The notes beneath the pieces are model-generated. The model searched no databases. It was not told where the DNA came from and saw nothing but the letters and a program-made list of their open reading frames with translations. Position numbers and translations under genes: made by a program. Positions 3,823 to 49,927 of a stretch of DNA of 64,000 nt are shown here, in pieces. Each line of letters begins with the position of its first letter. Position 1 is the first letter of the stretch. The DNA is from Pontiella desulfatans (GTDB lineage Bacteria; Verrucomicrobiota; Kiritimatiellia; Kiritimatiellales; Pontiellaceae): NCBI RefSeq assembly GCF_900890425.1, contig NZ_CAAHFG010000001.1, positions 1,240,001 through 1,304,000 of the forward strand. The letters are read 5' to 3'.

Positions 3823-3836
3823 GATTGCTCCTTATG

Positions 3837-3950
3837 TTACCGAACGGTAATAAACCTAGCACAAAAAGAATCAAAGACAACCTTTTTTACCGAACGGTAA
3901 TAATTGGTGGTATTTTGCCATTCGTATCATGTTTTACTACCGTTCGGTAA
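3837..3950. promoter_or_regulatory. Three hipBA operator-like palindromes
   Basis: The 14-bp box TTACCGAACGGTAA occurs at 3837-3850 and 3887-3900. A third copy in the opposite orientation (CTACCGTTCGGTAA) lies at 3937-3950. Starts are exactly 50 bp apart, close to five helical turns, so bound dimers would face the same side of the helix. The first box lies 15 bp upstream of the hipB ATG and overlaps the probable promoter (TTGTCT and TAGGTT on the minus strand, 16 bp apart). HipB in E. coli also binds several spaced palindromes, so the assignment is by analogy. Confidence 0.7.
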
Positions 3951-4085
3951 TATTGCGTGACGTCTTACAATTGAAGTCGAGACATATAGATTCATACCCG
4001 GTAAAACGCCCAAGTTCGGAGTCGTTAGTAAGCGGAAGTAGTATTTAGGAGTCTAGGATGTATCCCGTGCCACCTGGCTAAATGT

Positions 4086-15200: not shown

Positions 15201-15265
15201 ACAGAAGGTCGCAAAGAGCGCGAAACATGGAATTACTTACCTTTGCGCACTTAGCGACCTTCTGT
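15201..15265. repeat. Gene-less inverted-repeat hairpin
   Basis: Arms acagaaggtcgc (15201-15212) and gcgaccttctgt (15254-15265) are perfect 12-bp complements, and pairing continues imperfectly inwards (gcgc and aa/tt blocks) to about 25 bp. The base pattern resembles the 28-bp inverted repeats that flank the GxxExxY gene at 46804-47256, so this may be a derivative without cargo. It could also act as a bidirectional terminator. Confidence 0.55.
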
Positions 15266-17450: not shown

Positions 17451-17774
17451 CGTATTCTCCAACTCAAAGTTTACATATCAAAAATGGAAATCATAATATT
17501 TCCGATATTACTCGGCATAAATAGTTACATTTATCTAACATTTGGCCTCCACGGAAATTAGTCCGGAGCAGGAATGCCTTAAAATAGGGGGAGCGTGAGT
17601 TAAGCGCCGGAACGATAATAGTACGAAATGATTCCGGCCAGGCGCCTCAAAAAACTTCTCAAACACCTGAAACATTCTCAAAAAACCGGTTCATCACGGA
17701 AGTGCGACCTGAGGGTTGAAAAAAGAAGCTGGTTGTCGTTCCCTTAAAAGTTCTCCAACAAAGAAAGGAAACAG

Positions 17775-17984
17775 ATGACAACCAGCTCCCTGCACCATAC
17801 CCAAGGAATCCGCGGTTACAAATACCAAAAAACGGAACGAACAGCCGATTGCGAGATCTACTATCTGCACTCTACTGCCAAGCAACTGGCTTGCCCGCAG
17901 TGCCGATCGAGGCACACTTCGATCATCGAAACCGGCAGGACGCGCGATATCCGAGGCCTTTGCATCGGTTTTAAAAAACGTTGA
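17775..17984 (+). CDS. ISL3-family transposase, N-terminal zinc-binding part
   Basis: 69-residue frame carrying the start of the ISL3 transposase zinc finger (LACPQCRSRHTSIIETG, then RDIRGLCIGFKKR). In family members this continues without interruption into the next part. Here TGA follows the run TTTTAAAAAACG, and the rest lies in the -1 frame. A slip on the A6 run would give GFKKTLMRVATRRIRCREC, which matches the usual continuation, so either a frameshift mutation or programmed -1 shifting links the two frames. Confidence 0.85.
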   Translation: MTTSSLHHTQGIRGYKYQKTERTADCEIYYLHSTAKQLACPQCRSRHTSIIETGRTRDIRGLCIGFKKR

Positions 17985-18991
17985 TGCGCGTCGCTACCCG
18001 GCGTATCCGCTGCCGGGAATGCGGGTCTTCCAGCCATGAACCCGTTTCATTCTGCCCCGATCCATACGTGCGCTATACCAAGTGGACCGCCCGCTTCGTC
18101 CTCGGGCTTCGCAAAGCCATGTCGATCAGCGACGTGGCGCATTTTACCGGCCTGCATTGGGAAACGGTGAAGAACATCGAGAAAGCCTGGCTGGAAAAGA
18201 AGTACAAGAAGGTGCGGCTCGACGACGTGGCGTATCTGGGCATCGATGAAGTCCACCTCGGCTCGAAGCTCGGCTACATCACCGTAGTGCGCGATCTGGA
18301 ATCGGGAGCAGTGCTGTTCATCGGCAAGGGCAAAGGCGGCGACGCCCTCAAGAAGTTCCGAAAGCGGATCAAGCGCAAGGCGAAGCAGATCAAGGCCGTC
18401 GCCATTGACATGGCCAACTCCTACAGCGCATGGGTAGCCGACGTGCTGCCCGATGCCGACATCGTCTACGATCACTTCCACGTCATCAAGCTGATGAACG
18501 AGCGGATGGACAAGCTGCGGCGCAGCACGATGAACAAGCTCTGCGACGAACAGAAGAAACAACTCAAGAACAAGCGCTGGCTGCTGCTGCGCAACGTGGA
18601 GAACCTATCTGCTGAAGCCAAAGGGGAACTCGATCAATTGCGAGGTGAGTTCGATGACCTCGGAACGGCCTCGGCCATGAAAGAATACCTTCGCAACATC
18701 TACCGCATCGCCAACGGCGCAACCGTGGCGAAATTGGCCTTCGAGAAATGGTGCGCCATGGCCGATGAATCAGGGATTGCCTGCCTGAAGCAGATGGCCA
18801 GGACCATTCGGCGACGCATGGACGGGCTGTTGGCCTACTGGCAACATGGCTATCTCACCAACGCCAGCCAGGAGGGATTCAACAACAAGATCGGTTGGTT
18901 GACCCGCCAGGCCTACGGTTATCGGGATGAACGGTACCTGCATCTGAAAATCTACGACTTGCCGAACCTATCAACGAGCAGACGCCTGTGA
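17981..18991 (+). CDS. ISL3-family transposase, catalytic part
   Basis: 336-residue frame with the rest of the zinc finger (RRIRCRECGSSSHEPVSF), a helix-turn-helix (FTGLHWETVKNIEKAW) and the DDE core: YLGIDEVHLGSKLGYITVV (first Asp), VAIDMANSYSAWVADVLP with DHFHVIKLMNERMD (second Asp region), and TNASQEGFNNKIGWLTRQAYG containing the final Glu. The frame opens with TTG-ATG overlapping the previous stop. Its stop overlaps the right inverted repeat. Full length of the fused product would be about 405 residues, normal for ISL3. Confidence 0.9.
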   Translation: MMRVATRRIRCRECGSSSHEPVSFCPDPYVRYTKWTARFVLGLRKAMSISDVAHFTGLHWETVKNIEKAWLEKKYKKVRLDDVAYLGIDEVHLGSKLGYITVVRDLESGAVLFIGKGKGGDALKKFRKRIKRKAKQIKAVAIDMANSYSAWVADVLPDADIVYDHFHVIKLMNERMDKLRRSTMNKLCDEQKKQLKNKRWLLLRNVENLSAEAKGELDQLRGEFDDLGTASAMKEYLRNIYRIANGATVAKLAFEKWCAMADESGIACLKQMARTIRRRMDGLLAYWQHGYLTNASQEGFNNKIGWLTRQAYGYRDERYLHLKIYDLPNLSTSRRL

Positions 18992-19021
18992 GGTCGCACT
19001 TCCGTGATGAACCAAAAAACC

Positions 19022-45203: not shown

Positions 45204-46796
45204 ATGAATGTTCAAGAAAAAGTCTTTATATACGACACCACGTTGCGCGACGGTGCGCAGGCGGAAGGCGTTACCTTTTCGCCGGTGGCCAAGATCCACG
45301 TGGCGAAAATGCTCGATTCGTTCGGGGTGGACTATATCGAGGGCGGCTTTGCGGCTTCGAATCCGAAGGACATGGCTTTCTTCAAGGACATCAAGAAGGA
45401 AAACCTGAAACATGCCAAGGTTGCGGCCTTTGGCAGCACCCGCCGAGCGGGAGTGGACGTGGCGGAAGACAAGGGCACGCTGGCCCTGCTCGAAGCCGGT
45501 ACCGAGGTCTGCACCATCTTCGGCAAGACCTGGCTCCTGCACGTGACCGAGGTGCTCAAGACCACCGCCGGGGAAAACCTGGCGATGATCGAAGACACCT
45601 GCCGCTTCCTGAAGCAAAACGGCAAGGAAGTCGTCTACGACGCCGAACATTTTTTCGACGGCTACAAGGATAGCCCGGAATATGCCCTTCAAACATTGGA
45701 AGCCGCCGTCAAAGGCGGTGCCGATGTGCTGGTGCTGTGCGATACCAATGGTGGAAGCCTGCCGCACGAGGTATTCGAAATCACGACGGCAATCCGCGAA
45801 CAATTCGATGTGGCGGTTGGCATCCACACGCACAACGACTCGGAGACCGCCGTGGCCAACGCCATGGAGTCGGTCCGTGCCGGGGCAACGCAGGTACAGG
45901 GCGTAATCAACGGCTTTGGCGAACGTTGCGGAAACTGCAACCTGGTTTCGGTGGCGGCCAACATTCTGTTGAAGACCGGAAAAACCTGCCTGGCCGACCC
46001 GGGGAAGCTGAAAAACCTCAAGCAGGTTTCGCAGTTCGTGAACGAGCAGGCCAACCTGCGCGATAACCAGCGCGCCGCGTTTGTTGGCGATAGCGCCTTT
46101 GCCCACAAGGCCGGCATGCATGTCGATGGAGTCCGCAAGGTATCGCAGAGCTTCGAGCATGTGCCGCCGGAATCGGTCGGCAACGGTCGCCGTATCCTGA
46201 TCTCCGAACTGTCCGGCGCGAGCAACGTGATGGAAAAGCTGATCGAAATGGGGCTCGACAATATCGACCGCAAGTCGCCGGAGGTGCGCGAGATTCTCCA
46301 GACCATGGAAAAAATGGAGCGGGAAGGCTATGTCTACGAAGCGGCCGATGCGTCGTTCAAGATGCTCATCAAAAAGGTCCTCAAGGAGCACAAGAGCTTC
46401 TTCGAACTCGAAGGCTTCCGCGTGATCGTCGAAAAACGCGGCAAGAACGAACCGTGCCTTTCCGAGGCGACGCTCAAGCTGAAGGTGAACGGCGAAAAGG
46501 CGTTCACGGTGGGTGATGGCGACGGCCCGGTCGATGCCCTCAACATGGCCCTGCGCCGTGCGCTCCACGAGTTCTATCCGAGCATCGACGGGGTGCATTT
46601 GGCGGACTACCGCGTGAGCATCCTCGATCCCGAAGAGGCCACGGCGGCGAAAACGCGCGTGCACATCGAATCGTCCGACGGCGAAACCTCCTGGGGCACC
46701 GTCGGTGTTTCGGAAAACATCATCGAAGCCTCGTGGGAAGCCCTCGTCGATGGCGTGGAATACAAGCTGTTCCTCAATGAGGAAGATGTCGGGTAG
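45204..46796 (+). CDS. cimA: (R)-citramalate synthase
   Basis: 530-residue aldolase-type enzyme that condenses acetyl-CoA with pyruvate, the first step of the threonine-independent isoleucine pathway. The HMGL-like barrel has VFIYDTTLRDGAQAEGVTFS (metal and substrate loop), LVLCDTNGGSLPHEV, VGIHTHNDSETAVANAMESV and INGFGERCGNCNLVSVAANI, all typical of the CimA (TIGR00977) group rather than LeuA (TTLRDGEQ). The C-terminal 120 residues form the LeuA-type regulatory dimer domain (KLKVNGEKAFTVGDGDGPVD), so isoleucine feedback is likely. A ribosome-binding site aggaaaa precedes the ATG. Confidence 0.93.
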   Translation: MNVQEKVFIYDTTLRDGAQAEGVTFSPVAKIHVAKMLDSFGVDYIEGGFAASNPKDMAFFKDIKKENLKHAKVAAFGSTRRAGVDVAEDKGTLALLEAGTEVCTIFGKTWLLHVTEVLKTTAGENLAMIEDTCRFLKQNGKEVVYDAEHFFDGYKDSPEYALQTLEAAVKGGADVLVLCDTNGGSLPHEVFEITTAIREQFDVAVGIHTHNDSETAVANAMESVRAGATQVQGVINGFGERCGNCNLVSVAANILLKTGKTCLADPGKLKNLKQVSQFVNEQANLRDNQRAAFVGDSAFAHKAGMHVDGVRKVSQSFEHVPPESVGNGRRILISELSGASNVMEKLIEMGLDNIDRKSPEVREILQTMEKMEREGYVYEAADASFKMLIKKVLKEHKSFFELEGFRVIVEKRGKNEPCLSEATLKLKVNGEKAFTVGDGDGPVDALNMALRRALHEFYPSIDGVHLADYRVSILDPEEATAAKTRVHIESSDGETSWGTVGVSENIIEASWEALVDGVEYKLFLNEEDVG

Positions 46797-46803
46797 TTTT
46801 ATT

Positions 46804-47256
46804 CCTCGCAGAGGCGCGGAGAGCGCAGAGGCTGTGAATGTCTGATTTAAATGTAATTTCCGGCGACATCATAAAAGCTGCCATTGAAGTTCATAAAGAA
46901 CTGGGGCCGGGGCTACTTGAGTCTGTGTATAGAAAGTGTCTCGCTAAAGTGTTGCGCGACATGGGGTATGAAGTTGACGAAGAGATTTATCTTCCTTTGA
47001 CGTTCAGAGGGAGTGTTGTTGAGGAAAATGCATATAGAATTGATCTATTAGTGAATAAGTCCGTCATTGTCGAAGTAAAGTCGGTTGGGGAATTGAAACC
47101 GTTATTTTCTAAGCAGACAGGGACGTATTTAAAGCTGATGGATCTGCAATTGGGGCTTTTAATTAATTTTAATGTTTCGCTGCTGAAAGATGGCATTAAG
47201 CGGATAGTAAATAACTTTGAACAGTAAACCTCTGCGCTCTCTGCGCCTCTGCGAGG
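46804..47256. mobile_element. Inverted-repeat-bounded unit carrying a GxxExxY gene
   Basis: 28-bp arms at 46804-46831 and 47229-47256 are inverted copies with 27 of 28 bases identical; they begin cctcgcagaggcgc and are themselves made of GCAGAG-type repeats. Between them lies only the 129-codon GxxExxY gene. The unit sits cleanly between cimA and valS. No transposase is inside and no target duplication is obvious, so its mobility is inferred from structure. Confidence 0.6.
46838..47227 (+). CDS. GxxExxY protein (PD-(D/E)XK nuclease-like fold)
   Basis: 129-residue protein of the GxxExxY family (TIGR04256). It starts SGDIIKAAIEVHKELGPGLL followed by ESVYRKCL, which gives the family name motif, and later has RIDLLVNKSVIVEVKSVGEL, a D-x(n)-E-x-K pattern like PD-(D/E)XK nucleases. 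Function of the family is not established. Codon use is more AT-rich than the neighbours cimA and valS, which with the flanking inverted repeats suggests transfer as a unit. The stop at 47227 touches the right repeat. Confidence 0.88.
   Translation: MSDLNVISGDIIKAAIEVHKELGPGLLESVYRKCLAKVLRDMGYEVDEEIYLPLTFRGSVVEENAYRIDLLVNKSVIVEVKSVGELKPLFSKQTGTYLKLMDLQLGLLINFNVSLLKDGIKRIVNNFEQ

Positions 47257-47275: not shown

Positions 47276-49927
<2,652 letters not shown>

Follow-up and report, generated by a model that had tools for sequence, protein, structure and literature searches.

Between cimA and valS in the window (the whole 64,000-nucleotide stretch of DNA that was analyzed) lies a compact cassette consisting of one GxxExxY gene enclosed by inverted arms. 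The features of this locus, together with a gene-less hairpin elsewhere in the window, are as follows:

45204–46796, plus strand: cimA (citramalate synthase; TIGR00977, 5e-213), co-directional upstream neighbor
46800–46831, plus strand: left inverted arm, 32 nt
46807–46813, 46815–46821 and 46824–46830: left-arm 7-nt words CGCAGAG, CGCGGAG and CGCAGAG, respectively
46838–47227, plus strand: GxxExxY gene, 129 aa, predicted PD-(D/E)XK nuclease fold; TIGR04256, PF13366
47229–47260, minus strand: right inverted arm, 32 nt
47247–47253, 47239–47245 and 47230–47236, minus strand: right-arm word CGCAGAG, three copies
47276–49927, plus strand: valS (valine–tRNA ligase; NF004349 and TIGR00422, E = 0), co-directional downstream neighbor
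15201–15265, no strand assigned: gene-less solo hairpin with arm ACAGAAGGTCGCAAAGAGCGCGAA, like the arms of GxxExxY cassette L013

A single-gene cassette and its nuclease-like product

The cassette begins 3 nt past the cimA stop codon, and its arms, which lie 397 nt apart and match at 30 of 32 positions (94% complementary), form the strongest inverted repeat with a span of up to 1.5 kb anywhere in the window. An earlier note on this DNA had described arms matching at 27 of 28 positions around exactly one gene inserted between cimA and valS, and this description was accurate: its 28-nt arms contain one mismatch, the sole ORF between the arms is that at 46838–47227, and the identity of both neighbors is confirmed by their profile matches. 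Each arm carries three 7-nt words spaced 8–9 nt apart, and the GC content of the cassette is 0.39–0.42 compared to ∼0.57 on both flanks. Only a few bases separate the left arm from the start codon, and the stop codon adjoins the right arm, so that a promoter would have little space. As RNA, the arms form a long stem that encloses the gene (z = −5.7), while a comparison of the window and two further stretches with Rfam gave no match to a known RNA motif. Two other sets of repeats were observed in the window: perfect 23-nt inverted repeats 1.3 kb apart (17688–17710 and 18991–19013) surround a 336-aa ORF (17981–18991) and possibly represent an insertion sequence, and positions 3834–3953 hold several copies of the short palindromic repeats TTACCGAACGGTAATAA / TTACTACCGTTCGGTAA.

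The window protein belongs to the GxxExxY family by the curated cut-offs of both family profiles, TIGR04256 GxxExxY (1.4e-37, 128.6 bits against a cut-off of 35) and PF13366 PDDEXK_3 (7.8e-37, 126.7 bits against a cut-off of 22). A search by sequence for relatives of solved structure found none. In an AlphaFold2 model (pLDDT 95.6, pTM 0.89), the fold is most similar to Cas4 SSO0001 (Z 9.5) and to a restriction-endonuclease-like protein of Spirosoma (Z 8.2), with the Holliday junction resolvase Hjc at Z 7.4, under the tool's safe level of Z 8, and with weak matches to splicing endonucleases. Alignments of 62 and 79 sequences indicate that Glu28, Asp69, Glu79, Lys81, and Tyr97 are invariant or nearly so and that Gln93 is at least 90% conserved, a residue set that we take to be the RecB/Cas4 motif set. 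The modeled protein therefore combines the fold with the D, ExK, and QxxxY motifs of a predicted RecB/Cas4-type PD-(D/E)XK enzyme, and the earlier reading of a PD-(D/E)XK-like protein is supported by profile match, model fold, and a complete motif set. By its predicted structure the protein appears nuclease-like, although the fold does not tell the substrate. It resembles Cas4 and RecB-type nucleases (Cas4 SSO0001, 4ic1) in fold and in the D-ExK-QxxxY layout with an N-terminal acidic residue, but differs in being a minimal 129-aa single domain in which the cysteine cluster for an iron-sulphur site is not seen, and in being encoded with no cas or helicase neighbor and in association with its own repeats.

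Inverted arms, their words, and gene-less hairpins

A search of the 8.66-Mb genome with TIGR04256 gave 15 matches, 14 of them above the cut-off; since a single two-domain protein accounts for two of the matches, one per half, the genome contains 14 GxxExxY genes. All 14 possess inverted arms, with scores of 24–60 (54 for the window cassette) and with 12 of 14 scoring at least 26. Among 796 ordinary ORFs of this genome, by comparison, only 15 have a flank inverted repeat of at least 26; two of these genes lie between a pair of solo hairpins, and several look transposase-like from the starts of their proteins. Most arms in the genome follow one grammar, in which three CRCNRAR/T-type words succeed each other at intervals of 8–10 nt, and the three two-domain GxxExxY proteins (L020, L021, and L022; 264–276 aa) have arms with two words ∼17 nt apart. 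When left and right flanks were cross-paired between the cassettes, 2.7% reached 26; since cross-pairs rarely score, the arms match within an element and not between elements.

The same arrangement recurs across many phyla. Using 120-nt flanks, 49 of the 76 GTDB loci with full flanks score at least 26, compared to 8.4% of cross-pairs, with median arm scores of 32.5 and 16, respectively; using 200-nt flanks, 60 of 80 GTDB loci reach 28, these 80 loci (one archaeal) being the best matches to one subfamily and hence an uneven sample of the family. Alignment of flanks, the check named in the earlier note, thus reveals inverted repeats around most other copies, and the generality proposed there holds both within this genome and beyond it. 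A chance palindrome is ruled out by the recurrence of arms across phyla and by their rarity around ordinary ORFs. No relative of the window protein was found among 50,697 phage records, on which basis we rejected a phage-borne element, and the relatives in plasmids comprise eight records, all predicted to be non-mobilizable. A weak test with only a few conserved 23S strings found none of them in the fetched GxxExxY loci. In the literature searched, with most subscription journals and preprints lying outside the search, we found neither an association between GxxExxY genes and inverted arms nor the exact word-repeat strings.

The words themselves differ among protein subfamilies. Main-type GxxExxY genes have arms with CRCRRAG words, while L012-type proteins are accompanied by CRCTRAT-like arms and L018-type proteins by CRCAAR-like arms that usually begin with GCC. 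For the latter two types we searched one set of 240 genomes from the window's phylum, and leave-one-out naming of the subfamily from arm words succeeded in 92% of cases for these two co-sampled sets (shuffle maximum 77%) and in 85% for all three subfamilies (shuffle maximum 56%), where word extraction was anchored on C[AG]C such that only positions 2 and 4–7 are informative. One genome (G016) carries both kinds with different words, CACTAAT at L242 and CACAAAG-like at L275. Main-subfamily proteins that are more alike tend to have more similar arms when compared between phyla (rho 0.30), and this correlation holds when the GC difference is removed (r 0.315); 0 of 500 permutations reached either value. 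As judged from these sequences, word class follows the protein subfamily and not the host. Since the arms are carried along with their gene, part of this co-variation comes from physical linkage, and it could be co-inheritance without recognition. The consistency across phyla, together with the agreement with gene-less copies described below, suggests instead that the nuclease likely recognizes its own words.

A census covering 1.2 Mb of the 8.66-Mb genome identified 73 short hairpins scoring at least 30, with 0 in shuffles, and 29 of the 73 resemble gene-flanking arms. Some solo hairpins are nearly identical to the arms of one cassette and to no foreign element, among them CGCGAAAGAACGCAAGGAACGCAAA (L018), the GCAACGAAT type (L020), the ACAGGACTATT type (L022), and CACTAAT (L012). 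The CGCAGAG family, to which the window cassette belongs, has additional genomic copies, most of them gene-less hairpins. Solos score a mean of 32.0 against arms of their own genome versus 22.5 against equal numbers of foreign arms (1000 draws, maximum 24.3), a comparison that favors the own set in that the foreign arms came from the main subfamily only. The loops and flanks of solos are unrelated between copies, indicating that no single short unit was copied whole to give the solos. At L172:8178–8264, L207:15042–15119, and L197:19427–19506, for example, arms are near-identical to those of a distant cassette and the loops and flanks have nothing in common.

CACAGAG, the hairpin family with the most copies in the genome, has 149 arm matches, and no such arms occur among the 14 GxxExxY genes. 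Hairpins of this family (L379–L418; e.g., L179:16801–16871) are embedded in a longer conserved repeat, and some copies have an extra insertion within the hairpin. The family was apparently amplified by something else and, because it lies inside a larger repeat, we set it aside as evidence of GxxExxY-driven mobility.

Residence in operon gaps and occupancy in relatives

The gene upstream of the cassette is co-directional with it in 78 of 82 cases, compared to 57% for ordinary ORFs (p about 6e-15), and the downstream gene is co-directional in 77 of 88 cases, compared to 60%; the ORF method was crude but was the same for cassettes and for the ordinary-ORF baseline. The earlier note had suggested looking for empty sites in relatives and had regarded a cimA–GxxExxY–valS order conserved in all relatives as evidence against a mobile cassette. 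This order in fact varies, and the cimA–valS, trpE–trpG, and dprA–topA gaps, which are used repeatedly across relatives, were found filled, internally deleted, replaced, or empty. The cimA–valS gap also contains the gene in G024, where it has an in-frame TGA, and in G032, a genome from another family; the hairpin present in G029 has a loop similar to the start of the gene, the short gaps of G011 and G020 appear to hold arm remnants, and the remaining relatives contain different hairpins or other genes. The trpE–trpG gap contains the gene in this genome and in G001, G007, G011, G014, G016, and G025, a diverged copy in G029, and internally deleted copies in G013 and G033, and it is very short in G004, G008, G010, G015, and several order-level relatives. 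The dprA–topA gap contains the gene in this genome, G001, and G009, while G007, G010, and several order-level relatives lack an element there; G016 has a CACTAAT solo in this gap and a CACTAAT-type gene elsewhere (L242), and the remaining genomes have other hairpins.

These patterns bear on whether the gene is an ordinary one, inherited vertically, beside a palindrome that is fortuitous or regulatory. Recurrence of cimA–GxxExxY–valS in G024 and of trpE–GxxExxY–trpG in several relatives implies that some copies are old, their locus being common to relatives, so that movement may be rare. Simple vertical inheritance is nevertheless contradicted by arms that recur with GxxExxY genes of many phyla but not with ordinary ORFs, and by the many empty, deleted, or replaced sites, and we rejected it as highly improbable. 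The minimal mobile cassette proposed in the earlier note is therefore upheld as a cassette, by its arms, its single gene, and its patchy sites, while its movement is something we infer. A statistical search for target-site duplications with one genome per species showed no signal, the mean shared k-mer outside the arms being 3.40 against a null of 3.24 (2.97–3.48). A DDE-type insertion sequence was rejected, the only gene of the cassette matching PF13366 and not a DDE transposase.

Relation to intervening sequences and REP elements

Genes for S23 four-helix-bundle proteins (PF05635) that lie outside rRNA are also cassettes between tandem-repeat inverted arms, mostly of period 7. Among S23 loci of the phylum (L349–L378), 18 of 30 score at least 28, and the S23 genes of the same genome (L041, L042, L043, and L046) follow the same cassette plan, with arm repeats that include AGGAGTC, GGAGAAC, CGGGAATC, and others. 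The intervening sequence (IVS) in the 23S rRNA of Coxiella burnetii has a 28-bp terminal stem with three tandem GACAGAT heptamers, is excised by RNase III, and is described as being of unknown origin (PMC4990558). The window cassette resembles an IVS with an S23p ORF in its total length of ∼430–450 nt, its terminal inverted repeats with a stem of ∼28 bp (PMC4990558), its terminal tandem heptamers, its one small ORF in the loop with no evident promoter, and its transcription as part of a host unit. The two differ in that the IVS encodes S23p (PF05635) and sits in 23S rRNA, whereas the window cassette carries a PF13366 gene in the operon gap between cimA and valS. By analogy, GxxExxY cassettes look like IVS elements in which a nuclease replaces S23p.

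This likeness raises the possibility of an element that operates at the RNA level, whose transcript stem would be cut by RNase III, and perhaps by the GxxExxY protein, to isolate the cassette from the operon mRNA, with spread being RNA-mediated or by ordinary recombination. The strong co-directionality, the long RNA stem, and the excision by RNase III of the Coxiella IVS, with its similar 28-bp terminal stem and tandem heptamers (PMC4990558), are consistent with such a role. Nevertheless, the fold relatives of the window protein are mostly DNA nucleases, the splicing endonucleases match weakly, and the absence of a promoter alone would also give co-directionality; we consider this explanation unlikely.

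The earlier note had likened GxxExxY proteins to REP-associated systems. RAYT, REP, and REPIN systems share with the cassettes one gene between inverted repeats and gene-less cognate copies elsewhere (PMC2817692, PMC3116915), and REP repeats are reported to co-evolve with the RAYT protein (PMC2817692, PMC3116915). RAYTs, however, are HuH (Y1) tyrosine transposases (PF01797) and a REP consists of a lone palindrome carrying a short tag in place of tandem heptad arms, while the window protein matches only PF13366. Both systems are present in this genome with different repeats: the flanks of its 19 PF01797 hits have no word arms, and the RAYT-like genes L223, L225, L226, L229, and L240 have strong flanking repeats of their own, some of them G+C-rich palindromes, that are unlike word arms. 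RAYT was rejected as mover of the word-arm cassettes on these grounds, and the comparison with REP systems stands as an analogy of architecture, gene-less copies, and co-variation, and not as membership.

A further explanation holds that the nuclease is cargo and that hairpins are made and moved by other machinery, either slippage and template switching during replication or a trans-acting transposase. GxxExxY and S23 genes would then be loop passengers, tolerated in operons since RNase III trims the RNA stem. That the unrelated GxxExxY and S23 four-helix-bundle proteins share one architecture agrees with this account, as do the unrelated loops of solos and the amplification of the CACAGAG family in the absence of a GxxExxY gene with such arms. 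A passenger, on the other hand, has no need of a word class that tracks the subfamily across hosts and phyla and after GC removal; the predicted active site is kept; and the obvious trans mover, RAYT, is encoded between other repeats. We regard the cargo explanation as somewhat unlikely.

We favor, by a modest degree of confidence, the interpretation that GxxExxY cassettes are minimal elements without a promoter, akin to both IVS and REPIN elements, and that the nuclease acts on the arms of its own cassette. Such an element would comprise a single GxxExxY gene with tandem 7-nt words in an inverted arm on either side, and, residing in an operon gap and pointing with transcription, would be expressed from the host promoter, with the purine-rich arm end beside the start codon possibly serving as ribosome-binding site. 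In RNA the arms would pair into a long stem, as in the 23S rRNA intervening sequence. The nuclease, whose working substrate may be DNA or RNA, would recognize the tandem words that flank its own gene, probably when these are presented in a hairpin that is extruded or single-stranded, and cut at the arms, after which repair would copy or keep arm-bearing sequence at new sites. Gene-less cognate hairpins would be non-autonomous REPIN-like derivatives, which can arise by internal deletion of the gene. Binding and cutting of own arms, and spread driven by cutting, are steps that we infer. Counting against this interpretation are the lack of a target-site duplication signal, the unrelated loops and flanks of the solos, the age of some copies, the physical linkage of arms and gene, the abundance of the CACAGAG family, and the S23 cassettes, which follow the same plan and carry no known nuclease. 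The earlier suggestion of nucleases acting on their own repeats is thereby retained as the best explanation, with the tracking of subfamily by words in its favor and with cutting as its putative step.

What this analysis contributes beyond the earlier note is the tandem-word grammar, the match between word and subfamily, the operon co-directionality, and the likeness to S23 intervening sequences. It provides a testable role for a common protein family with no assigned function, and dozens of natural nuclease–word pairs whose specificity would be readable from sequence. It also connects the S23 intervening sequences, which have long lacked an explanation, with a broader class of hairpin cassettes that reside in operons. 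Tentatively, and with rather less assurance than for the interpretation above, these cassettes may constitute new pan-bacterial, nuclease-only mobile elements, in which a mini RecB/Cas4-like nuclease recognizes its own heptad words with a specificity that diversifies as the protein does; such elements and S23 elements together might explain the origin of the 23S rRNA IVS and of many multicopy intergenic repeats.

One GxxExxY gene has been reported beside a CRISPR-type reverse transcriptase where a cas4 gene is expected (PMC8934634); we rejected a general GxxExxY–reverse transcriptase link, which would rest on this one case. Multicopy intergenic sequences of Geobacter bemidjiensis, described as palindromes and direct repeats of 6–42 nt, are listed with no associated gene or mechanism (PMC2996986) and are set beside the cassettes by description; the same lineage holds GxxExxY cassettes with CGCAACG words (L057 and L080).
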